From an uncultured Lachnospiraceae bacterium (GTDB lineage: Bacteria; Bacillota; Clostridia; Lachnospirales; Lachnospiraceae): 64,000 nucleotides of DNA. The notes under the pieces were generated by a model. The model worked only from the letters and a program-made list of their open reading frames with translations, made no database searches and was not told the origin of the DNA. Positions 7,829 through 22,718 of the stretch are shown piece after piece. How positions within the stretch are numbered: the first letter of the stretch is position 1; each line of letters starts with the position of its first letter. The position numbers were made by a program, and so were the translations under genes. Location of the stretch: NCBI GenBank assembly GCA_947178145.1, contig CAMWXE010000015.1:1-64000 (forward strand). Reading direction: 5' to 3'.

Positions 7829-7863
7829 AAATGAAAATATGAAAAGAATTTTTGGGGATTGAT

Positions 7864-8985
7864 ATGAAGAAAACGAATCTGGATGCCTTGTCAGCAAAAT
7901 ACAGGATATCCGACTACAAGGAACTACACGCAAAAGTAATTGCGCTGATCGACAGTCAGAAGATAAAACCGGTGAAGGCGTCGGGAAAGAACGGGAAGTC
8001 GCCGGCCCTTTACAGGGAATACTGGGTGATCGAGGAGAAACAGGATGTATCTCAATATATCAATGAGCTAAACTACGAGATCGCTCCTGTCATTTCCACG
8101 GACTATTATCAGGCGCACATCGAGCAGTATATTCAGGACAGGCAGTGGGTATTGCTGTTAAATGATTATATCAAGAACCATGATTTTATGACACTCATGT
8201 CAGAAAATGAGCGCAGCTTTGACATCTGGCACAGGGAGAAATTTCTGAAACAAGAGCAGGGAAAGAAGATTTTGAAGCGCTGCGGGCTGGAGACGGATTT
8301 TCTGAATTATTATCGGACGACAGAACCGATTGCGTATTATTCCGCGACAAGACAGACGCCGCAGAATTTGCTGATAGTTGAAAATAAGGACACATTTTAC
8401 AGTATGCGCAAGTGTCTGATGAATACCGGACAAAGGGAGAAAAGCGGCATGAGGGGAAGCGTGATCAATTGTCCGGAATTGAGCAGACAAACTGAGCCAA
8501 TATGCCAGATAAATAACAGTAAAAATTTGCCTGAAAATGCTGCGCATCCAATATGCGGTGAGCAGATTGGTACTTTGATTTATGGAGCGGGAAAGGGAAT
8601 TATCGCGGCATTTTCCGATTTTGCTATCAGCGGCGAGCCTTATATGACAGCGCAGGGCAACAAAATCCTCTATTTTGGCGATCTGGATTATGAGGGAATC
8701 GGAATCTATCAAAATTTTGCATCCGCATATGGGAGTCAGTATGATATTCAGCTTTTGAAAAGTGCCTATGAGTTGTTGCTTGCAAAAGCAGACCGCATCG
8801 GTATTGAAAACCTTCCACTTACTAAGGAAGGGCAGAACCGGAAAATTGAAAACCTTTTTCTATGTCAGTTTTCCCAAGAGCAGCAGGCAAAAATAAAAGA
8901 AATCCTCGAGCAGGACAGATATGTGCCGCAGGAGATATTGAATATAGCGGATATCATGGCAGTTCCTAAGTTTTACGGGGAATAG
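7864..8985 (+). CDS. Wadjet nuclease subunit JetD (DUF2220/Toprim)
   Basis: A 373-residue protein. The C-terminal half carries a Toprim-like catalytic core: the acidic residue in LLIVENKDTF (E173), the IYGAGKGI loop, and DLDYEG (273-278), matching the ENxxT/GxG/DxDxEG pattern of JetD. In Wadjet systems JetD cleaves DNA after the JetABC complex has extruded a loop on small circular plasmids. Between ENK and YGAGKG lies a long hydrophilic stretch of about 45 residues with little family resemblance, probably a surface insertion. ATG7864 is chosen because GGGG at 7854-7857 lies 6 bases upstream. Unusually, jetD is about 3 kb upstream of jetABC, behind its own terminator, with an ABC exporter between. 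Topoisomerase VI subunit A-like folds are related alternatives, but the jetABC genes nearby settle the call. Confidence 0.85.
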   Translation: MKKTNLDALSAKYRISDYKELHAKVIALIDSQKIKPVKASGKNGKSPALYREYWVIEEKQDVSQYINELNYEIAPVISTDYYQAHIEQYIQDRQWVLLLNDYIKNHDFMTLMSENERSFDIWHREKFLKQEQGKKILKRCGLETDFLNYYRTTEPIAYYSATRQTPQNLLIVENKDTFYSMRKCLMNTGQREKSGMRGSVINCPELSRQTEPICQINNSKNLPENAAHPICGEQIGTLIYGAGKGIIAAFSDFAISGEPYMTAQGNKILYFGDLDYEGIGIYQNFASAYGSQYDIQLLKSAYELLLAKADRIGIENLPLTKEGQNRKIENLFLCQFSQEQQAKIKEILEQDRYVPQEILNIADIMAVPKFYGE

Positions 8986-11989: not shown

Positions 11990-13615
11990 ATGCAGTATGA
12001 ATTTTTAAAGCAGTTTTCCAAAAGAATGAAGCATGTGGGGATGTACGCCCTTCTTTTGCAGAACAGCATGGCGAAACAGACCTGGAAGCAGTATGGTTTT
12101 ATGAAAGCAGACGAACAGATCAACATGATTTTTACCGTGATGCTGTATATCATGGAGCAGTCGCTGCGGGAGGAGAGCTGTACGATGGACGATATCGGGG
12201 CGTACATCGACAATCTCAACTCGGGTTGCTTTCAGAAGAACATGTCCTATGATGACTGCAAAAAACTGGGGGATTTTATCGTCAATGTCATTCTGTCCAA
12301 CGAGGGCAGGGCAATGTATTTTGACGGGTATGACTATGACAGCATGGCGTATCGGAGCATGAACATCAGCTATATCGCAAACCGTGTCATTTATGTGGAC
12401 GAGGGGGTAAAACGAACGTCCTACTATCTGACGGAGGACGGCTATAACCTGATGCTCTCCACGCTCGAGATTGAAAACAACATGAAGCTCACAATCCATG
12501 AGATGATTTTCAAGCTGCATCTGGAAAAGCAGAGCTATGATAAGGCCGTCGACGAGATCAAAAACGTCTTTAATTTCATGCGCATACAGCTGCAGAAAAT
12601 CGAGGAGGCGATGCTTCGCGTGCGGCGCAATGCGCTGAGCTATTCCGTCGCAGACTACGAGGCGCTCATGCATGAAAACATGGAGACCATCGGAGACACC
12701 AAGGAGAAGTTTACAGGCTACCGCGAGATGGTAAAGCTCAGGGCATCGGAACTGGAACAGCAGAATATCAATGTGCAAAAACTCGATGCAAAGGAGGAGG
12801 AAAAGCTGGAGAATCTCCGCATCATTGAAGGGTATCTGAACAGGACGCTCGATGAACATCAGAAGATCCTGAACCTGCATTTTGACTTGAAGCTGCTGTA
12901 TGACAGGGAGCTGCAGTCGCTTGCGCAGATGTCGCTGATTCAGCGGTTCTCCATTCGGACAGAGCTCTACGACAAGGTGCTTGACAATCCGCGGTATCTC
13001 GAAAATCTGGACATATTTTTAAGGCCGCTGTTTCATCAGCAGATTCCCAAAATCTACAATCTGAATAAGTGTATGGAGCTGCAGCGTCCGGTCAGAAAAA
13101 AGGCGGAGGAAGATGTGGATGAACTGCTGGACTTTGACGAAAAGCAATGGCAGGACGAGCTGGAGCGCAGGAAGAAAGAGAAACTCAAAAAGTATGAGGA
13201 CAGTCTGGCGTTTATTATTGATGCAGTGCTCAAAAAGGGGCGTCTGTCATTGATGGAGCTGAAAGATATTTTGGAGGAGGACGCGGCGGCGCGGGATACC
13301 TGCATTCCGTCCATCGACGTGTTTAAGGAGATTATGGTGGAGCTCATCAGAAACCGCGAGATTTCCATGGAGACGCTGCGGAAGGAAAAGAGCGAATTTA
13401 TAACCGAGCAGGCCAATGATTTTCAGTTAAACGACATGCTGCTTGGCCTGACTGAGAAGGGAGCGGCCAGTCACGCAAAGCGGAAGAAGATAAAGAAAAT
13501 TTGCACGATGCGGTCAGAGGACGGAACGGTTGTGGAGTTTGCGAATGTGAAGGACGAAAGCGGCGGCGAGAAGACGATTCGATGCACAAATGTGATTATT
13601 ACGGCAGAAGTGTGA
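11990..13615 (+). CDS. Wadjet subunit JetA (DUF5716, kleisin-like)
   Basis: A 541-residue protein of the DUF5716 type that defines type II Wadjet operons. It has an N-terminal helical domain (about 1-180), long coiled-coil stretches (about 185-320, for example ELEQQNINVQKLDAKEEEKL) and a charged C-terminal region. In Wadjet complexes JetA is the MukF-like kleisin that bridges the SMC heads. GGAG and ATG11990 are 5 bases apart. The stop codon lies inside a 25-bp direct repeat (13611-13635), and about 210 bases of repeat sequence follow before jetB, unlike the tight spacing usual in these operons. Confidence 0.85.
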   Translation: MQYEFLKQFSKRMKHVGMYALLLQNSMAKQTWKQYGFMKADEQINMIFTVMLYIMEQSLREESCTMDDIGAYIDNLNSGCFQKNMSYDDCKKLGDFIVNVILSNEGRAMYFDGYDYDSMAYRSMNISYIANRVIYVDEGVKRTSYYLTEDGYNLMLSTLEIENNMKLTIHEMIFKLHLEKQSYDKAVDEIKNVFNFMRIQLQKIEEAMLRVRRNALSYSVADYEALMHENMETIGDTKEKFTGYREMVKLRASELEQQNINVQKLDAKEEEKLENLRIIEGYLNRTLDEHQKILNLHFDLKLLYDRELQSLAQMSLIQRFSIRTELYDKVLDNPRYLENLDIFLRPLFHQQIPKIYNLNKCMELQRPVRKKAEEDVDELLDFDEKQWQDELERRKKEKLKKYEDSLAFIIDAVLKKGRLSLMELKDILEEDAAARDTCIPSIDVFKEIMVELIRNREISMETLRKEKSEFITEQANDFQLNDMLLGLTEKGAASHAKRKKIKKICTMRSEDGTVVEFANVKDESGGEKTIRCTNVIITAEV

Positions 13616-13760
13616 AGTGTGAAGAGATTTTCTAAGCGGCCAAAAGACGCCCGCTAAGAAAATCTAAAGCTTCACACCGAAGAACGCAGGGGCAGCGTTC
13701 TTCACGGATTGTCTGCGCTGCTGATGGCAGCATGATGTGAAGTGTGAAGAGATTTTCTAA
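13611..13760 (+). repeat. Family B repeat with 25-bp direct repeats between jetA and jetB
   Basis: The 25 bases beginning TGTGAAGTGTGAAGAG occur exactly at 13611-13635 and again at 13736-13760. Between them, AGATTTTCTTAG-type arms pair (ATTTTCTAAGCGG near 13627 with CCGCTAAGAAAAT near 13650), and GAACGC/GCGTTC forms a second hairpin. Blocks TTCTAAGCGGCCAAA and TTCACGGATTGT are shared with 2385-2475. The first direct repeat contains the jetA stop codon. Confidence 0.8.
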
Positions 13761-13825
13761 GGCCGCAGACGGGCATTTTTAGTATATAGGAATGAAATAG
13801 TTTATTTCAGTGGGAGAGGTTTCAC

Positions 13826-14539
13826 ATGGCATATGAAATGGAAGAAATACGCCTGAGCCAGCAGATTTTTTATTATCTTTTGGAGCATTTTGAGCTGAAA
13901 GAGGACGAGGCGGCCGGGCTGTACAGGGCGTATGTGGAGAATGAGCAGGTGCAGCTGCTGGTCAAGAGCCAGGGCGATGAGGCACAGAGCAATATTGAGC
14001 GGTACGGGGAGGTCATCTACCTGATTCCAAAGGAGGAGAATGTCTTTCTGGGATTTTCCAAGGCGAAGCTCAAGGAGATCCTCTGCAAATCCGGGGGCAC
14101 GGACAAGGATTTTTACCTGTCACAGTTTGTGATACTGACACTGCTGTCAGAATTTTATGACGGACAGGGGGCGAGCGCAAAGTCGAGGGACTATATCCGC
14201 GTGGGCGAGCTGCAAAACTGCGTGACAGACCGGTTAAAGAACGGAGTCGAGAACACCACGGCGGAGGAGGAAGAAAAGAACGGTCTGGCTTTTCGGAACA
14301 TGCAGGAGGCATATGAGGCGCTAAAGTCGGATGAGCGCGGTTCGAGGGCAAGGACGACGAAGGAAGGCTTCCTCCACCATATTTTTATGTTCCTCGAAAA
14401 CCAGGGATTAATTGAATATGTGCAGGAAGACGAGATGATCAAGACGACGAAAAAGCTGGACAACCTGATGGACTGGAATCTGCTCAACCAGAATAATTTC
14501 CAGCGCATACACAAGGTGTTCCAGGGGGGATTAACATGA
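13826..14539 (+). CDS. Wadjet subunit JetB (DUF4194, KITE/MukE-like)
   Basis: A 237-residue protein with the DUF4194 pattern: a winged-helix start (LSQQIFYYLLEHFELKEDEA, at the length limit), the centre LSQFVILTLLSEFYD, and a C-terminal motif FLENQGLIEYVQEDEMIKTT leading into DNLMDWNLLNQ. JetB is the KITE subunit that dimerises on the JetA kleisin. GGGAGAGG precedes ATG13826 at about 8 bases. It overlaps jetC by 4 bases (ATGA at 14536), so the two are coupled. Confidence 0.87.
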   Translation: MAYEMEEIRLSQQIFYYLLEHFELKEDEAAGLYRAYVENEQVQLLVKSQGDEAQSNIERYGEVIYLIPKEENVFLGFSKAKLKEILCKSGGTDKDFYLSQFVILTLLSEFYDGQGASAKSRDYIRVGELQNCVTDRLKNGVENTTAEEEEKNGLAFRNMQEAYEALKSDERGSRARTTKEGFLHHIFMFLENQGLIEYVQEDEMIKTTKKLDNLMDWNLLNQNNFQRIHKVFQGGLT

Positions 14540-17500
14540 GTAAAATAAACGCAGTGCGTTTTATCAATCTGAACTATAACAACAATTCAATGCGCATCAG
14601 TGACGACACGTTTCAGATGCAGGGACGGAGCACGCTGATGTCGCTGCAGAACGGGGGCGGAAAGTCGGTTCTGGTGCAGATGATGACCGCCCCGTTTGTG
14701 CACAGGCGCTACAGGGACGCGAAGGACAGACCGTTTGAGAGCTACTTTACGACCAGCAGGCCCACCTTTATCATGGTGGAGTGGAAGCTTGACCGCGGGG
14801 CGGGTTACTGCCTTGTCGGAATGATGGTGCGCAAAAGCCAGCTGACGGAAGATGACGCAGAGAATCAGCTTGAGATGATTAATTTTATCTGCGAATATCC
14901 GAACAGGTGCGCTCAAGATATCTATCATCTTCCGGTGGTCGAGAAGCGGAACAAGGAAATCGTGCTCAAAAACTACCGCGAGTGCAGGCAGCTTTTTGAA
15001 TCCTACAAAAAAGACCACACAGTGAAATTCAACTGCTACGACATGAACAACAGCGCCCAGTCAAAGCAGTATTTTGACAAGCTTGCCGAGTATCAGATTT
15101 ATTATAAGGAGTGGGAGAATATTGTCCGCAAGATCAACCTCGAGGAGTCAGGTCTCTCGAAGCTTTTTGCAGACTGCAGGGACGAGAAGGGGCTGATTGA
15201 AAAGTGGTTTCTGGACGCGGTGGAGAGCAAGCTCAACAAGGAAAAAGACCGCATGAAGGAATTTCAGAATATCATAGAAAAATATGTGATCTCCTACAAG
15301 GCGAACCAGTCAAAGATCGAGCGCAGGAACACAATCCGCCAGTTCAAGGAAGATGCGTCAGAGATTGCCGCGTCAGCCGGCGAATATAAGCTTGTGACGG
15401 ACAAGGTGGAGGAGCAGGAGAACAGTATTGCAGGCTTTCGGGCTTTGCTGACGCAGATGGAGGCAGCGGAAAATGCTGCAAGAGACCAGCTTCTTGCGGA
15501 CAAGGCAGGATGCGGTCAGGAGCTTGCGCGCATCGAGTACGAAAGGTATTCTTATGAGATCGTAAACCTGACGGACCAGCTGCGTTTCCATGTGAGCAAC
15601 CGCGATATGATCGGCGTGGAGCGGGATGCGCTGGAGGGAGAGATCGCGCAGATCGAAACACTGCTTCACAAGATGGAACTCGCAAAGCAGGGCGAGCAGG
15701 TGGAGGACGTCAGGCAGGATGAAAGTCTGCTCAAAGAACGCCTCAAGGTTCTGCATGAGGGGGAGAGCAGGCTGGAGCCTGAGCGCAGGGCACTTGGGAA
15801 AGCGCTTGGCGAATATTATGAAAAGCTTGTGAAGGATGCGGCAGATCAGATTGATCAGAATGAGACCGCGTATCAGGAGGAAACGCAAAAGTTTCGTGAG
15901 CTGGAGGACAAGCAGCAGTGGCTTGACGAGAACATCATCAAAGTCATAACAAACATCAGCACTTACAAAGAGCGGATGAACAGTTTTAACCGCATCGAGG
16001 ACAGCTTTAACGAGGATTTTCAGGAGACATTTGTCAGAAATATCATCGGTGAGTATGAGCCGGGATTTCTGGATATCAAAGGGGAGCAGTACCAAAAAGA
16101 ACTCGGGGAGTGCACAAGGAGCTGTACAGCGCACAAAAAACTGCTCGAGGAGGCAAACGAACGGCAGAAATCACTGCTCCGCGACGTGGAGGACAAACAG
16201 CAGGAGCGCATCAGGCAGGAGTACCGGACAGCGGATTTGGAGCGGGAAAAAGCCGATTACGAGCGGGAGTTATCCGAGCGGCTTGTCATGATGCGCTATT
16301 TTGGCATTGACTTGAAGGAGCAGTGGAATATGGACAAAATTCTTGCCGCTGCAGACCGCAAGCTTACGGAGTGCGAGCAGATGAAGCGTATGCTGGAAAA
16401 GGAAGAGGACGCATTGCAGAAGGAATTTGTGCGCCTAACGCAGGGAAAAGTGCTGGAGCTTCCGGAGGAGACGTCAGCGCTGTTTGGCAGACTCAACATC
16501 AATATTGTGTATGGCATGGACTGGCTGAAGAAAAACGGTTACTCCCGTCAGCGAAACGAAGAAATTGTGCGCAGACAGCCGTTTCTTCCGTATGCGCTGA
16601 TTATGTCAAAACATGACATCAAGATACTTTCGGAGCATGACAGGGAGGTCTACACCTCATTTCCGATTCCCATCATACTGCGCGAGCGGCTCGAGGAGAC
16701 CGTGGCGGCGCAGGAGAGCGGACTTCTGGAGCTGTCAGGAGTCAGCTTCTTCATGTGGTTTAACGAAAAGCTGTTGGACGAGGAAGCGCTGCGCCTGCTC
16801 GTGCAGGAAAAAGAAAAGCAGATTCGGGAAAAGAAGGAACAGACAGCGGTGCGCAAAAAGGAGTACGAGGAATATTTTGAGAAGAGGGAACGGCTGAAAA
16901 ACCAAAGACTAACAAAAGATGCCTACGACAAAAATAGGACACAAATGTCAGAAATGGAGACGGAAGCGGAGGCGCTTCTCAGAACGATACAGACATTAAA
17001 AAGTGATGCGCAGAAAAATGAGGAGCACATCGGTAAGCTCTCGGAGGATATCACAAAGGAGCAGCATTTGTTAGAAAAGATGCGAAAGCGCGAGAAGCAT
17101 TTTGCACTGTTTTGCAAGGAGTATGAGACCTACATGGAATGCATGGCAAATGTGAACCGCTGTCAGAAAGAACAGGAGCGTTACGAGCAGAACCGAAAAA
17201 TGGTCAGGGACGCTCTGGAAACGTGCAGGGAACGGCTCAAAAGCATCGAGAGCGCGCACGCGGAGCTGGACAGGATGGCATTGGAATACCGAAACAAATA
17301 CAGCATATATGAGACATACCGGTTGACGGAAACAGAGGAGACTGCAAGGGAAATCCAGCTTCCGGCGACTGCGCAGGAGCAGGAGGCAAGATACGAGGCG
17401 ATCACCTCCAGAATGTCCATGCAGGTGCAGGATCTGGAAAAACAGCTGCAAAAGACTTCCGCAAACCGCATCAAACTGCAGAAAGAGCTGGAACGGCTGT

Positions 17501-18954
17501 CTAAAAAATACGGATTCGAAGAAAGTGACTGGACCGGAATCACATACAGCGGGAAAGAGGAGACGCATCAGGAAATTCTGCTCGAGGACAAGAGAAACAA
17601 AATGAAGATCAAGGACAGGCAGTGGAACGACGAGGACAAAGAAACTGCAGTCTGCCAGAGCCGCATCAACACAAAGAAGAAAGATATGCTTGAAAAATGC
17701 GGCATGGAGGAGCCGCTCGCAAAGGAAGAGATCACAACGACAGAATTTGATGCGGCAATCAATCAGATTCAGTTCCGAATCAGCAGTATCGAGGCAGATA
17801 TCAAAAAGGTAGAACAGAAGCTGAAAGGTCTGGGCGAGAATCTGAGCACACTCGCAGAGTACGAGGATTTCGTGTGCAGGCACGAACCGCAGTGGGAGAC
17901 AGATATCACACTGCTGGACGCAAAAGGGCTCCGCGATTTTCAGGGGAGACTGCTGCGCGATTACAGGAATCTGAAGGAGGAGCGCGGGCGCAGGAAGAGC
18001 AAACTGACCGCATATCTGTACAAAATGATTCAGAAGGAAATCTATCAGGAGGACTATTACAGAAAGCCGCTCGAGTCCATGATATCGCTGACGGACAGTG
18101 CGTCGCTGATATTGGCACAGCTGGATACAACGCTGCAGTCCTACGACAGTCAGATGGAGAAGCTTGCGGTGGATATTTCGCTTGTCGAAAAGGAAAAGAG
18201 CCGGATTACAGAGCTTTTGAGTGACTACTGCCAGGATGTGCACAACAATCTGGGGCAGATTGACAGCAACTCGACCATCACCATCAGGGAAAAGTCCGTG
18301 AAGATGTTAAAACTGCAGCTTCCCGACTGGACAGAGCAGGAGGGAATGTATCAGCTGAAACTCAGCGATTTTCTCGATGAGCTGACGACAAAGGGCGTGG
18401 AAATCCTCGAGAAGAATGAAAATCCGCAGGAGTATTTCGGGACGAGGATCACGACCAGAAATCTATATGACAGTGTTGTCGGAATTGGGAATGTGCAGAT
18501 CAAACTGTACAAGGTGGAGGCGCAGCGGGAGTATCCCATCACATGGGCGCAGGCTGCCAAAAATTCCGGCGGCGAGGGATTCCTGACGGCATTTGTCATC
18601 CTTTCCAGCCTGCTGTACTATATGCGCCGCGATGAGACAGATCTATTTGCCGACCGGAACGAGGGCAAAGTGCTGGTAATGGACAATCCCTTTGCGCAGA
18701 CGAACGCAGCGCATCTGCTCAAGCCGCTGATGGATATGGCGGACAAAATGAACACGCAGCTGATCTGCTTCTCGGGACTTGGCGGGGATTCGATCTATGG
18801 ACGGTTTGACAACATCTATGTGCTGAACCTTGTTGCGTCGAATCTGCGCGGCGGCATGCAGTATCTAAGAGGCGAGCACCTGCGCGGCGCGGAGGAGGAG
18901 ACGATAGTGAGCTCGCAGATTGAGGTGATTGGGCAGCAGAGTTTGTTGTTTTGA
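14536..18954 (+). CDS. Wadjet SMC-like ATPase JetC
   Basis: A 1472-residue SMC-type ATPase. Walker A NGGGKS is at residues 39-44, the ABC signature NSGGEGF at about 1343, and Walker B VLVMDNPFAQTNA at about 1379-1391. Between these lie two long coiled coils (about 190-640 and 760-1290) around a hinge-like segment near 650-750 that contains a MukB-like globular part. In Wadjet, JetC with JetA and JetB extrudes plasmid DNA loops and hands them to JetD for cleavage. The ATP motifs are all intact, so the subunit should be active. It is coupled to jetB. No jetD follows; instead a short gene remnant and an inverted-repeat element come next. Confidence 0.9.
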   Translation: MSKINAVRFINLNYNNNSMRISDDTFQMQGRSTLMSLQNGGGKSVLVQMMTAPFVHRRYRDAKDRPFESYFTTSRPTFIMVEWKLDRGAGYCLVGMMVRKSQLTEDDAENQLEMINFICEYPNRCAQDIYHLPVVEKRNKEIVLKNYRECRQLFESYKKDHTVKFNCYDMNNSAQSKQYFDKLAEYQIYYKEWENIVRKINLEESGLSKLFADCRDEKGLIEKWFLDAVESKLNKEKDRMKEFQNIIEKYVISYKANQSKIERRNTIRQFKEDASEIAASAGEYKLVTDKVEEQENSIAGFRALLTQMEAAENAARDQLLADKAGCGQELARIEYERYSYEIVNLTDQLRFHVSNRDMIGVERDALEGEIAQIETLLHKMELAKQGEQVEDVRQDESLLKERLKVLHEGESRLEPERRALGKALGEYYEKLVKDAADQIDQNETAYQEETQKFRELEDKQQWLDENIIKVITNISTYKERMNSFNRIEDSFNEDFQETFVRNIIGEYEPGFLDIKGEQYQKELGECTRSCTAHKKLLEEANERQKSLLRDVEDKQQERIRQEYRTADLEREKADYERELSERLVMMRYFGIDLKEQWNMDKILAAADRKLTECEQMKRMLEKEEDALQKEFVRLTQGKVLELPEETSALFGRLNINIVYGMDWLKKNGYSRQRNEEIVRRQPFLPYALIMSKHDIKILSEHDREVYTSFPIPIILRERLEETVAAQESGLLELSGVSFFMWFNEKLLDEEALRLLVQEKEKQIREKKEQTAVRKKEYEEYFEKRERLKNQRLTKDAYDKNRTQMSEMETEAEALLRTIQTLKSDAQKNEEHIGKLSEDITKEQHLLEKMRKREKHFALFCKEYETYMECMANVNRCQKEQERYEQNRKMVRDALETCRERLKSIESAHAELDRMALEYRNKYSIYETYRLTETEETAREIQLPATAQEQEARYEAITSRMSMQVQDLEKQLQKTSANRIKLQKELERLSKKYGFEESDWTGITYSGKEETHQEILLEDKRNKMKIKDRQWNDEDKETAVCQSRINTKKKDMLEKCGMEEPLAKEEITTTEFDAAINQIQFRISSIEADIKKVEQKLKGLGENLSTLAEYEDFVCRHEPQWETDITLLDAKGLRDFQGRLLRDYRNLKEERGRRKSKLTAYLYKMIQKEIYQEDYYRKPLESMISLTDSASLILAQLDTTLQSYDSQMEKLAVDISLVEKEKSRITELLSDYCQDVHNNLGQIDSNSTITIREKSVKMLKLQLPDWTEQEGMYQLKLSDFLDELTTKGVEILEKNENPQEYFGTRITTRNLYDSVVGIGNVQIKLYKVEAQREYPITWAQAAKNSGGEGFLTAFVILSSLLYYMRRDETDLFADRNEGKVLVMDNPFAQTNAAHLLKPLMDMADKMNTQLICFSGLGGDSIYGRFDNIYVLNLVASNLRGGMQYLRGEHLRGAEEETIVSSQIEVIGQQSLLF

Positions 18955-18966
18955 GGGGGATGTGGA

Positions 18967-19074
18967 ATGGGGGCTGCTATAACATTGCAGCAAGCGAAGG
19001 ATACTTTGCAGAGTAAAGAATTTTATGAGTATGTAAAGTCGTGTGGTACGCCGACAACACCGACTTCATATTGA
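18967..19074 (+). other. Short open frame, possible gene remnant
   Basis: A 35-codon frame (MGAAITLQQAKDTLQSK, then EFYEYVKSCG) begins 12 bases after jetC stops. It has no good ribosome site and no recognised family. It reads like the N-terminus of a protein cut short by a frame change before the element at 19101. Treated as a remnant rather than a real gene. Confidence 0.25.
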
Positions 19075-19100
19075 GTATCAGTAGACGATATAAAAGAGTA

Positions 19101-19419
19101 AGGAACTGTCAATAAATAACTCATCAATTTGACTTGTCAGGTACTGACATGGTTAAATGTTCATCTGCGTCATCAGATAATCTTGACGTAAGGCATTGCC
19201 CTTTATGCCTTTGCCTCCTACGCCTGCGATTATCTTCTTTGCAGCTGAACATTTATACGGCGTCAAATTAACAAGTTATACTGGCGGTCGAAAAGACTGA
19301 CCGCTCAGTATAAAGTTATGCACACAGCCGCATAAGGAAATATGCCGCTTCGCGGCTGCGGCTGGCGCGATACTCACGGCAGATTTCATCTGTCGTGAGT
19401 ATATTTCTTGACAATTCCT
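19101..19419. mobile_element. MITE-like element with imperfect inverted termini
   Basis: AGGAACTGTCAATAAATA (19101-19118) and TATTTCTTGACAATTCCT (19402-19419) are inverted copies with 16 of 18 matches. The 319-bp interior codes for nothing and is packed with hairpins: TATACTG-GCGGTC/GACCGC-CAGTATA around 19274-19314, and ATACTCACGGCAGAT/ATCTGTCGTGAGTAT around 19370-19403. No clear target duplication could be fixed. It resembles a miniature inverted-repeat element, or a compound RNA structure, inserted between jetC and the GHKL/helicase gene. Confidence 0.6.
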
Positions 19420-19445: not shown

Positions 19446-22256
19446 ATGGCAAAAGTATCATTTAACGTAGATGCTTATACAGCAAGACTAATTGGAAGAG
19501 AGAATGTTTCTAAATTGGAAGGTGCTGTTATAGAGTTGATAAAGAATACATATGATGCTGATGCATCAATTTGTCTCTTATATTATGATGAGATTGCAGA
19601 CATATTGTACATTGCTGATAATGGAACCGGAATGACAAAAGATGTTATTATGAAGCATTGGATGACGATCGGGAGATCTTCTAAAAAGAGAACGTATGTT
19701 ACAGGAACAGGAAGGATTCAAACAGGTGCAAAAGGTATAGGCAGATTTGCACTTAACAGAATTGCAGAGAAGTGTACAATGCTCACCGGAACGAAAGAAA
19801 AAAAAGAAAACATTATATGGACAGTTGATTGGTCTGATTTTACGGGTAATAGGAATATTACAGAGATAACAGCAGATATCGAGAGTACGAATATATCATT
19901 TGAACAGTTTATGAGTCATTGTAATAATCATGAAGTAGTCGAATTAATCAATCAGAAGTGGGAAAATAATGGTACAATATTTAAGCTGTCTAATTTGCAT
20001 GAGGTATGGGATGATATTTTAATTCATAACATTCGTGAAAATTTATCCAGCCTTATTCCATACGAATTAGAAGATCTATATAAAATATATTGTTTTGATA
20101 ATAAGACAAAAATACAAGATGCCCAAATATTCAGTAATATAGATGCATTTTCATATGATTACAAAATTGAATATGAGGTAGGAAAAGATAAAGGACAACA
20201 GGATGTGTGCTATAAAATTTGGAGAGAGGAATTTGATTTTGGCAGTGAGGAGGATGAAGTTTTATCAGGTGCGGGGTTGTTAGAAGAAAAGAGACTTTTT
20301 CATGGTAAGCCAATAGAAAAGAAATGCGTCTTTAGAGATATTATCATTGATGAAGCACACCACAGTTCTGCAAATAGTTATCAAAAGATAATGAATTATT
20401 TTGAGCCTGATTTTTGGCTGGGTATGACCGCAACACCCGACAAGAGGGATGACAATATAGATGGAAGAAATATCTATGAGATTTTCGATCACAATATTGT
20501 ATACGAGATTAGACTGCAGCAGGCAATGGAAGAAGATCTGCTCTGTCCGTTTCACTATTTTGGGATTACAGATTTGCAGATGATATCTGATACTGGAAAC
20601 TCCAAGGAAGAACGACTTGAAAATTTCCGGTATCTGACTTCTGATGAACGGGTAAACTATGTGATGAATCAGGCGGATTATTATGGGTATAGCGGGGATT
20701 GCGTGAAGGGATTGATATTTTGCAGCCGCATAGATGAGGCCAAAGAATTGTCAGCAAAGTTTAATCACAGAGGCTGGCGGACGATGGTACTTAGCGGAGA
20801 AGACTCAGAGGAAGTGAGAGCAGATGCGATAGAGAGGCTTGCGGGAGATGAATGTGAAAATGCACTGGATTATATATTATCTGTTGATATTTTTTCAGAG
20901 GGTGTTGACGTGGTTGAAATCAATCAGGTCATTATGCTTCGACCGACACAGTCGCCCATTGTATTTGTTCAGCAGTTGGGACGTGGTCTCCGCAAAGCGG
21001 ATGGAAAAGAATACGTTGTTATTTTGGATTTTATAGGAAATTACAAAAATAACTTTATGATACCAATTGCATTGTCTGGTGACAGAAGCTACAACAAGGA
21101 TACGATACGAAGATATGTCATGGAGGGAAGCCGGGTGATTCCGGGGAGCTCTACCATTCATTTTGACGAAATCAGCAAAAGTAAGATTTACGCAGCGATT
21201 GACAGACTATCAACGCCGAGAAAAATGTTGATAGAGAAATATACGCTGCTGAAAGATAAGCTTGGAAAAATCCCTTCTATGATTGATTTTTACGATTATG
21301 GAGAGATTGATCCGCTGTTATTTATAAACTATGCAGGGACGTACCATGCATTCCTGCAAATAGCAGATAAAGAGTATCAAACACAGCTTACGGAGAATGA
21401 GAATGTAACGTTGGAGTTTCTTTCGCAGAATGTAGCAAGCGGAAAGCGAATATATGAGCTTTTGATGTTGAAGCAGTTTTTGAATTATGGTGAGCTTCGC
21501 AAAGGGGAGATAGAAGCGCTTCTAAGAGAGGAATATCATAAAGACTTTTCTGAGGAATCCTATGAGTCATCTCTGAATGTACTTAGTGGTGGATTCATGA
21601 ATACGCAGAGTGAAAAGAAGAAGTATGCGGATATCAACATTGTGGAATATAGTCCAAGTCGTACATATTCAAGATTGTACTCTTATAACCAAGGAGTTAA
21701 GCAGCTGCCGCTTTATCAGCAGCTCAGCGATTTGATCCAATTAGGGCTATGCAGGTATCGCGATATCTATTCTGAAAATCAGGATGAAATGGGACTGGCT
21801 CTTTATCAAAAATACTCAAGAAAAGATGTATGCCGTATTTTAAATTGGGAGCGCGACGACAGTTCTACCGTGTATGGATATAAGATTAAAAACGGAAGCT
21901 GCCCTATATTCGTCACATATGAAAAGAAGGACAATATTGCCAGCAGTACAAAATATGAGGATGTTTTTCTTGCGAACAATCTGTTTAGCTGGATGACAAG
22001 AAGCCGTGTCTCACTTGACAGTGATGAGACACAGAAATTGATTCATTACAAAGAAAACGGATTGAAGATATTGCTGTTCATCAAGAAGAGTGATGGCGAA
22101 GGCAGCGACTTTTATTATATGGGACTGGCAGAACCGATTCGTTGGAAACAGACAGAGATCAGCAATGATGATGGGAAGAAGCTTCCGATTATGAATTTTC
22201 AGCTGCAGCTTGCGTATAGTGTCAGGGATGATATTTATCAATATTTCGTAGAGTAA
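19446..22256 (+). CDS. Chimera: GHKL ATPase N-terminus fused to DEAH helicase/DUF3427 C-terminus
   Basis: A 936-residue protein in one unbroken frame. Residues 1 to about 295 are a GHKL (Hsp90/MutL/paraMORC-like) ATPase: the N-box has E30, N34 and D37, the G1 box is DNGTGM (58-63) and the G2 box is GAKGIGRF (94-101). From about residue 297 it is the second part of a superfamily 2 helicase: motif II DEAH (302-305), GMTATPDKR (about 326), QQLGRGLRK (509-517), then a DUF3427-type C-terminus. The helicase lacks motif I (Walker A) and everything upstream of motif II, so it should not hydrolyse ATP by itself. The simplest reading is an in-frame deletion that joined two neighbouring defence genes. 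It may be a non-functional remnant or a new fusion. Start ATG19446 follows AAGGAGACAAAGAG. Confidence 0.85.
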   Translation: MAKVSFNVDAYTARLIGRENVSKLEGAVIELIKNTYDADASICLLYYDEIADILYIADNGTGMTKDVIMKHWMTIGRSSKKRTYVTGTGRIQTGAKGIGRFALNRIAEKCTMLTGTKEKKENIIWTVDWSDFTGNRNITEITADIESTNISFEQFMSHCNNHEVVELINQKWENNGTIFKLSNLHEVWDDILIHNIRENLSSLIPYELEDLYKIYCFDNKTKIQDAQIFSNIDAFSYDYKIEYEVGKDKGQQDVCYKIWREEFDFGSEEDEVLSGAGLLEEKRLFHGKPIEKKCVFRDIIIDEAHHSSANSYQKIMNYFEPDFWLGMTATPDKRDDNIDGRNIYEIFDHNIVYEIRLQQAMEEDLLCPFHYFGITDLQMISDTGNSKEERLENFRYLTSDERVNYVMNQADYYGYSGDCVKGLIFCSRIDEAKELSAKFNHRGWRTMVLSGEDSEEVRADAIERLAGDECENALDYILSVDIFSEGVDVVEINQVIMLRPTQSPIVFVQQLGRGLRKADGKEYVVILDFIGNYKNNFMIPIALSGDRSYNKDTIRRYVMEGSRVIPGSSTIHFDEISKSKIYAAIDRLSTPRKMLIEKYTLLKDKLGKIPSMIDFYDYGEIDPLLFINYAGTYHAFLQIADKEYQTQLTENENVTLEFLSQNVASGKRIYELLMLKQFLNYGELRKGEIEALLREEYHKDFSEESYESSLNVLSGGFMNTQSEKKKYADINIVEYSPSRTYSRLYSYNQGVKQLPLYQQLSDLIQLGLCRYRDIYSENQDEMGLALYQKYSRKDVCRILNWERDDSSTVYGYKIKNGSCPIFVTYEKKDNIASSTKYEDVFLANNLFSWMTRSRVSLDSDETQKLIHYKENGLKILLFIKKSDGEGSDFYYMGLAEPIRWKQTEISNDDGKKLPIMNFQLQLAYSVRDDIYQYFVE

Positions 22257-22331: not shown

Positions 22332-22718
22332 ATGAAAACAATAAAAGTAGCAGCCGCGATTATCGTGGATAACAACAAACTTTTTGCCACGCAGCGCGGA
22401 TATGGAGAGTTTAAGGACGGCTGGGAATTTCCGGGCGGAAAGATTGAGGAAGGAGAGACACCGCAGCAGGCTCTTAAGCGGGAGATTCGTGAGGAGCTTG
22501 ACACAGAGATCGAAGTGGGGGAACTGGTGGATACAATCGAGTACGATTATCCCAATTTTCATTTGTCAATGGATTGTTTTGCCTGTACCATCAAGTCTGG
22601 CGATTTGATTTTGAAGGAGCATGAATCTGCAAAGTGGCTTGGAAAGGACGAATTATATAGCGTGGACTGGCTTCCGGCTGACATAGGGATACTTGAACAG
22701 TGTGCAGGATTGCTATAG
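22332..22718 (+). CDS. Nudix hydrolase (MutT-like)
   Basis: A 128-residue protein with a complete Nudix box GGKIEEGETP...REIREEL (consensus GX5EX7REUXEEXGU) at about residues 37-59. The N-terminus VAAAIIVDNNKLFATQRG is typical of MutT/NudG enzymes that hydrolyse oxidised or modified nucleoside triphosphates. AGGAG lies about 8 bases before ATG22332. It starts 75 bases after the chimeric helicase gene. Nudix genes are often neighbours of DUF3427 helicases, so the pair may be an inherited unit; this is recalled context, not shown here. Confidence 0.92.
   Translation: MKTIKVAAAIIVDNNKLFATQRGYGEFKDGWEFPGGKIEEGETPQQALKREIREELDTEIEVGELVDTIEYDYPNFHLSMDCFACTIKSGDLILKEHESAKWLGKDELYSVDWLPADIGILEQCAGLL

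Follow-up and report, generated by a model that had tools for sequence, protein, structure and literature searches.

The locus described here raises a simple question: is a long open reading frame that joins the beginning of a GHKL ATPase to the end of a helicase a new enzyme, or the remains of two broken genes? The frame lies within the window, i.e., the whole stretch of 64,000 nucleotides analyzed from an uncultured Lachnospiraceae bacterium, in a region carrying Wadjet genes. The helicase belongs to a type that we call SauUSI-type, after SauUSI, a Staphylococcus aureus restriction enzyme of type IV that depends on modified DNA. The features on which the argument rests are the following (identities refer to G028, a genome of the same genus).

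7852..8985, + strand: Wadjet type III jetD, 377 aa (PADLOC JetD3)
11990..18954, + strand: Wadjet type III jetA, jetB, and jetC, upstream of the putative scar (PADLOC JetA3, JetB3, JetC3)
18978..19100, + strand: 3'-end remnant of a DNA methyltransferase gene, 123 bp (92.7% identity)
19101..19418, no strand assigned: 318-bp insertion absent from G028, a composite MITE-like repeat (alignment with G028)
19446..20342, + strand: 5' part of a dual-GHKL (paraMORC-like) ATPase gene, codons 1-299 (HATPase_c_3; 94.9% DNA identity)
20340..20342, + strand: deletion joint, 3-bp overlap ATT (base-by-base registers against G028)
20340..22256, + strand: SauUSI-type restriction enzyme gene reduced to its 3' part, which starts immediately ahead of motif II and runs through DUF3427, the PLD nuclease, Walker A, and all else upstream being missing (Pfam, PADLOC; 97.6% DNA identity)
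22332..22718, + strand: NUDIX hydrolase, frame intact (PF00293; PADLOC PDC-S07)

Content of the chimeric frame

The frame at 19446-22256 comprises 936 codons with no internal stop, and ahead of it a plausible ribosome-binding site was noted by eye. It is an in-frame GHKL/helicase chimera, in which codons 1-298 derive from the GHKL gene and codons 300-936 from the helicase gene, codon 299 being shared. Pfam places HATPase_c_3 at residues 24-146, a tail piece of ResIII at 297-332 (profile 127-163 of 164), Helicase_C at 421-516, and a complete DUF3427 at 658-934 (profile 1-279 of 280), and residues 296-934 align with positions 336-951 of the 953 in the PADLOC mREase_IV (modification-dependent type IV) profile. 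By regular expressions, the N-box (30), G1 (58), and G2 (94) were located in the GHKL part, and DEAH (302), TAT (328), SEGVD (484), and QQLGRGLR (509) in the helicase part, which begins just upstream of DEAH. The GxGK[TS] pattern of Walker A is absent from the whole chimera by the same kind of scan, and Pfam found neither a PLD nuclease domain (E up to 0.001) nor a C-terminal HATPase_c in it. A preliminary description of this DNA had proposed GHKL motifs in residues 1 to about 295, then a helicase starting at motif II with DUF3427 downstream and without any Walker A, and the domain and pattern searches bear out each of these points; its joint, put at residues 295-297, was a few codons off the one measured here, codon 299.

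Intact parents and the joint

Both halves were searched for in 38 genus genomes, among them that of the window. On one contig of G028 they are separate open genes, with the GHKL half at C7:87396-88313 (frame of 764 codons) and the helicase half at C7:81794-83719 (frame of 985 codons). From about 6.7 to 24.6 kb, the window aligns with this stretch of G028 in segments that are 87-98% identical and separated by several indels. The order in G028 is jetABC-matching DNA, a methyltransferase (472 aa, Eco57I family), the GHKL ATPase (760 aa, with an N-terminal HATPase_c_3 and a C-terminal HATPase_c at 646-757), a receiver-like protein (204 aa), an HNH nuclease (196 aa), a PLD-helicase-DUF3427 enzyme (979 aa, PLDc_2 at residues 60-184), and the NUDIX gene. 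Base by base, the match of the window to the G028 GHKL gene runs up to 20342 and that to the helicase gene begins at 20340, at 94.9% and 97.6% DNA identity beside the joint, respectively. The 3,712 bp of G028 that the window lacks between the two comprise codons 300-760 of the GHKL gene, two complete genes, and codons 1-341 of the helicase gene.

The best explanation is that a single deletion of 3,712 bp in the lineage of the window would have fused the dual-GHKL ATPase gene to the SauUSI-type gene, taking away the 3' part of the former, the receiver-like and HNH nuclease genes, and the 5' part of the latter. It was probably an ordinary short-homology or end-joining event, and the in-frame joint would have arisen by chance, at odds of about 1 in 3. 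When breakpoints were drawn at random within the two parents, the frame was kept in 33.8% of 20,000 draws, so that a frame-keeping deletion is not striking; the frame is open across the chimera since each half comes from an intact gene. As both genes are whole in a close relative, the chimera is most likely what is left of broken genes rather than a new enzyme. We put at about 0.88 the probability that a single deletion in this lineage made the chimera and that it is a pseudogene-like remnant, a scar in a decaying defense island. With the PLD nuclease and Walker A gone, and the GHKL part without its C-terminal 461 residues, the product should be able neither to translocate nor to cut DNA; to judge from its architecture, the GHKL parent would normally need its C-terminal GHKL domain.

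Some observations count against a scar. The open frame, the plausible ribosome-binding site, and the low dN/dS (see below) are what a selected new protein would show. The preliminary description held that many relatives with separate full-length genes at this site would speak against a fusion; the intact arrangement at the exact site was found in one genome, G028, and not in many relatives, while separate genes at other sites are common. Neighborhoods of GHKL and superfamily II (SF2) helicase genes, described in passages of PMC2292703, also count on that side.

A different origin for the joint would be the assembly or the binning, the contig misjoining two strains or read clusters of an organism that has both genes whole. 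The genome is a 200-contig assembly with an estimated contamination of 6.77%, and dS to G028 differs between the halves (0.21 vs. 0.077), as might be the case if they came from different strains. However, dS varies among intact genes too (0.129 in jetC, 0.136 in the NUDIX gene), and there is a second deletion close by (see below). Assemblers work with k-mers much longer than 3 bp. An assembly collapse is unlikely because the two sides share just 3 bp, far below such a k-mer, and because nothing else in the window's assembly matches the missing 3.7 kb (best E 0.21 over 32 bases). Altogether we consider a misjoined contig improbable.

Decay beside the joint

The joint is not the only sign of damage at this place. 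Upstream of the chimera, about 1.7 kb of G028 is absent, comprising the spacer and the first ~1.3 kb of the methyltransferase gene, and the remnant of the latter has a stop codon absent in G028 (alignment read by eye); this second deletion lies 1.4 kb from the chimera joint. The 318-bp insertion that follows carries inverted repeats at its termini, AGGAACTGTCAATAAAT and AGGAATTGTCAAGAAAT, which are imperfect; the right-hand repeat ends at 19419. The insertion has at least 26 partial matches elsewhere in its own genome at E up to 0.01, among the 40 of 85 candidates that were scored. The methyltransferase remnant and the repeat insertion show further decay beside the joint. The NUDIX gene adjoins the helicase in G028 and in a further genome, G017, too. 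With Wadjet III genes present, the methyltransferase truncated, and the parents whole in G028, the first of the two readings offered by the preliminary description, a decaying scar in a defense island, agrees well with what we found.

Two further observations concern these surroundings. The parts of the repeat at about 7-185 and 181-309 occur separately in the genome, with best identities of 90-100%. The gene jetD lies ~3 kb upstream of jetABC, with ABC-transporter-like genes between them (named by reading the frames, with no profile), and it matches its best profile in two stretches and may contain a small in-frame insertion near residues 192-242.

Search for the joint in other genomes

A single match over residues 1-936 was obtained in one of the 38 genus genomes, the window's own. 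Among 397 genomes drawn from the larger family, 22, own included, have the GHKL half (E up to 1e-10). The joint was checked at 28 GHKL loci, 24 of them from this family search plus L001 and three others from the genus, with the genus matches in G020, G013, and the second one in G000 outside the check; 26 are unjoined to a helicase and the other two are the window's own. From the opposite side, no GHKL half lies inside the helicase frame among 91 fetched helicase loci (80 kept of 153 candidates and 11 from the genus search, including duplicates, e.g., L004/L033 and L005/L034). Walker A is in the same frame as the helicase in 77 of these loci, and the 14 lacking motif I there comprise five truncated by the end of a contig (L038 and its duplicate L006, L045, L066, and L098), two with the frame broken elsewhere (L015 and L058), and seven with a break at motif I.

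None of the 432 plasmid records and none of the 1,397 phage records with a match covered 80% of the chimeric frame in one place, and nothing was found in viral contigs, either by a protein scan or with an exact 40-base pattern of the joint. The alignments for the chimera (A1) and for the intact parent (A2) contain 24 and 21 sequences, respectively, picked from larger sets. The search for the same joint in other strains, which the preliminary description had proposed, thus ended with the joint seen in no other genome searched.

Selection and age of the probable deletion

Measured between the window and G028, the dN/dS ratios of the GHKL and helicase halves are 0.087 and 0.085, respectively. When the changes in the helicase half are polarized with G017, nine synonymous and two non-synonymous fall on the branch of the window, and 10 and two on that of G028. 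Most of the divergence between window and G028 may predate the deletion and, to judge by the few changes on its branch, the window has gained little since the point at which selection could have relaxed. The low dN/dS fits a young deletion and neither shows nor excludes function, and we rejected it as a test of function since the deletion, which is probably recent, is too young to decide.

These values have to be weighed for the other reading in the preliminary description, a new protein whose GHKL domain powers the helicase scaffold. In such a protein the GHKL domain would bind or hydrolyze ATP and drive, or gate DNA binding by, the remainder made of RecA2, coupler, and SRA-like domain. The GHKL motifs, the open frame of 936 codons, the complete DUF3427, and the low dN/dS of both halves would all suit such a protein, and so would the fact that MORC-type GHKL genes adjoin superfamily II helicases in general, as stated in passages of PMC2292703. 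Nevertheless, the joint occurs in no other genome searched, both parents are cut short and occur apart in the genomes examined, and a recent event explains the dN/dS. Passages of the SauUSI paper assign residues 1-191 to the PLD nuclease, which also forms the dimer, and the binding of ATP to motif I (PMC7913695), and both are gone from the chimera. We regard a GHKL domain powering a helicase scaffold as very improbable. A related proposal, that the chimera is expressed and selected and that its GHKL module, standing in for the first half of the SF2 motor, gates a modified-cytosine reader made of coupler and SRA-like domain as a new DNA-binding switch of the defense island, would be every bit as hard to credit. 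If functional, it would be, to our knowledge, the first GHKL-driven SF2 scaffold, and no paper in the library searched contains both "GHKL" and "DUF3427".

By analogy with SauUSI, the remnant could also act as a dominant-negative or decoy protein, its SRA-like domain still binding modified DNA and interfering with or informing its neighbors. The DUF3427 region is complete, and passages of PMC7913695 describe SauUSI residues 806-953 as the SRA-fold, 5-methylcytosine-binding TRD. As none of the other genomes searched shares the joint and no partner is known, we give this role very little credence.

The reading as a deletion scar makes the chimera a case of defense island decay, in which one short-homology deletion would have removed the working parts of two neighboring systems, leaving a long and apparently sound frame that is likely to be annotated as a helicase. 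A single in-frame chimera should not be taken as domain innovation.

The parents as separate units

An Eco57I-type methyltransferase, the dual-GHKL ATPase, the receiver-like protein, and the HNH nuclease make up a four-gene cassette. It is located at L113:10811-15748 in G028, and the same order is seen in all six of the nearest GHKL relatives fetched (L156-L161), with a broken GHKL frame in L156. No PLD-helicase match is near the cassette in these six, within the 9 kb taken of each. Conversely, G017 has jetABC-matching DNA (jetA partial) and then the full PLD-helicase and NUDIX genes, with no match to the cassette within the 16 kb taken, and one of the 91 helicase loci, that of G028 (L033), has a GHKL gene in its stretch. 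In these genomes, the fused genes therefore belong to two units that are found apart and that were neighbors in one island.

PADLOC gave no match at E up to 0.001 for the GHKL and receiver-like proteins of G028, and weak ones to REase_II profiles (2.5e-6) for the GHKL half in the window. The cassette is possibly an uncatalogued defense system, either R-M-like or of a signaling kind. In passages of Iyer and colleagues (PMC2292703), MORC-type GHKL genes are said to commonly adjoin superfamily II helicases, in a few cases ones with an N-terminal HKD (PLD-type) nuclease, and since such neighborhoods have been described, a functional link between GHKL proteins and helicases is plausible in general. 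The cassette and the interruptions of SauUSI-type genes at Walker A, presented below, seem of greater interest than the chimera itself.

Interruptions at Walker A in other SauUSI-type genes

Seven of the 80 loci kept from 153 candidates have a SauUSI-type gene with an interruption at its Walker A codons (L044, L052, L060, L086, L094, L097, and L100; at 2.4 kb in L097 and near 7.7 kb in the others). The frame restarts at GTGKTYASAF, with unrelated DNA upstream. A separate N-terminal piece ending at the same codons was found in five of the seven interrupted genomes, a partial match in the sixth, and none in the seventh (pieces L162, L164, L166, L168, L169, and L171), and two of the five genomes with such a piece also hold a full-length gene. 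Genes of large serine recombinases are located upstream in three of the seven interrupted loci (L044, L052, and L086) vs. one (L046) of 27 controls, the query being the recombinase of L052, itself one of the seven, and the controls being loci not broken at motif I and hand-chosen for long flanks. The recombinases of L044 and L052 match Resolvase and Recombinase. The P-loop codons of the restriction gene look like a putative recombinase attachment site, and the two ends may belong to one element.

The joint in the window was considered as one more of these breaks and rejected, as it lies ~80 codons later, just before motif II. The breaks elsewhere are at the Walker A codons with unrelated upstream DNA, unlike the joint in the window.

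Comparison with known systems

The helicase parent in G028 aligns over residues 10 to 977 with PDB entry 7clg (E 2.4e-218), which the structure table names "Putative helicase" and which we take to be SauUSI. The string "7CLG" appears once in the text of the SauUSI paper, passages of which give the layout of this enzyme as a PLD nuclease, an SF2 ATPase, a coupler, and an SRA-like TRD (PMC7913695). Compared with it, the window keeps everything from motif II onward and has lost the nuclease, Walker A, and the beginning of RecA domain 1, so that the chimera has the C-terminal DUF3427 of such enzymes and lacks their PLD nuclease and Walker A.

In G028, the GHKL parent resembles the paraMORC/HEF_HK proteins, as it carries HATPase_c_3 at its N-terminus and HATPase_c at its C-terminus and a receiver-like gene comes next, whereas the chimera has the N-terminal HATPase_c_3 with N, G1, and G2, but no C-terminal HATPase_c. 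In the G028 proteins, HEF_HK (PF19191) and Response_reg_2 (PF19192) gave no match at E up to 1, a search in which the HMMER filters drop most weak matches, and the receiver-like partner matches PF00072 below its cut-off. The context of a methyltransferase and an HNH nuclease resembles the R-M neighborhoods described in PMC2292703 and PMC8011034, although the G028 methyltransferase matches Eco57I and not the C5 type stressed in PMC8011034. The BbrUII/HgiDII family (NCBIfam NF050001) matches the GHKL part of the chimera at 22-240 (E 6e-15), with 54.8 bits against a cut-off of 550, and hence as similarity only.

Deletion-generated chimeric pseudogenes in defense islands are fusions of neighboring genes beside remnants or repeats. 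Set against these, the chimera in the window differs in that it happens to be in frame.
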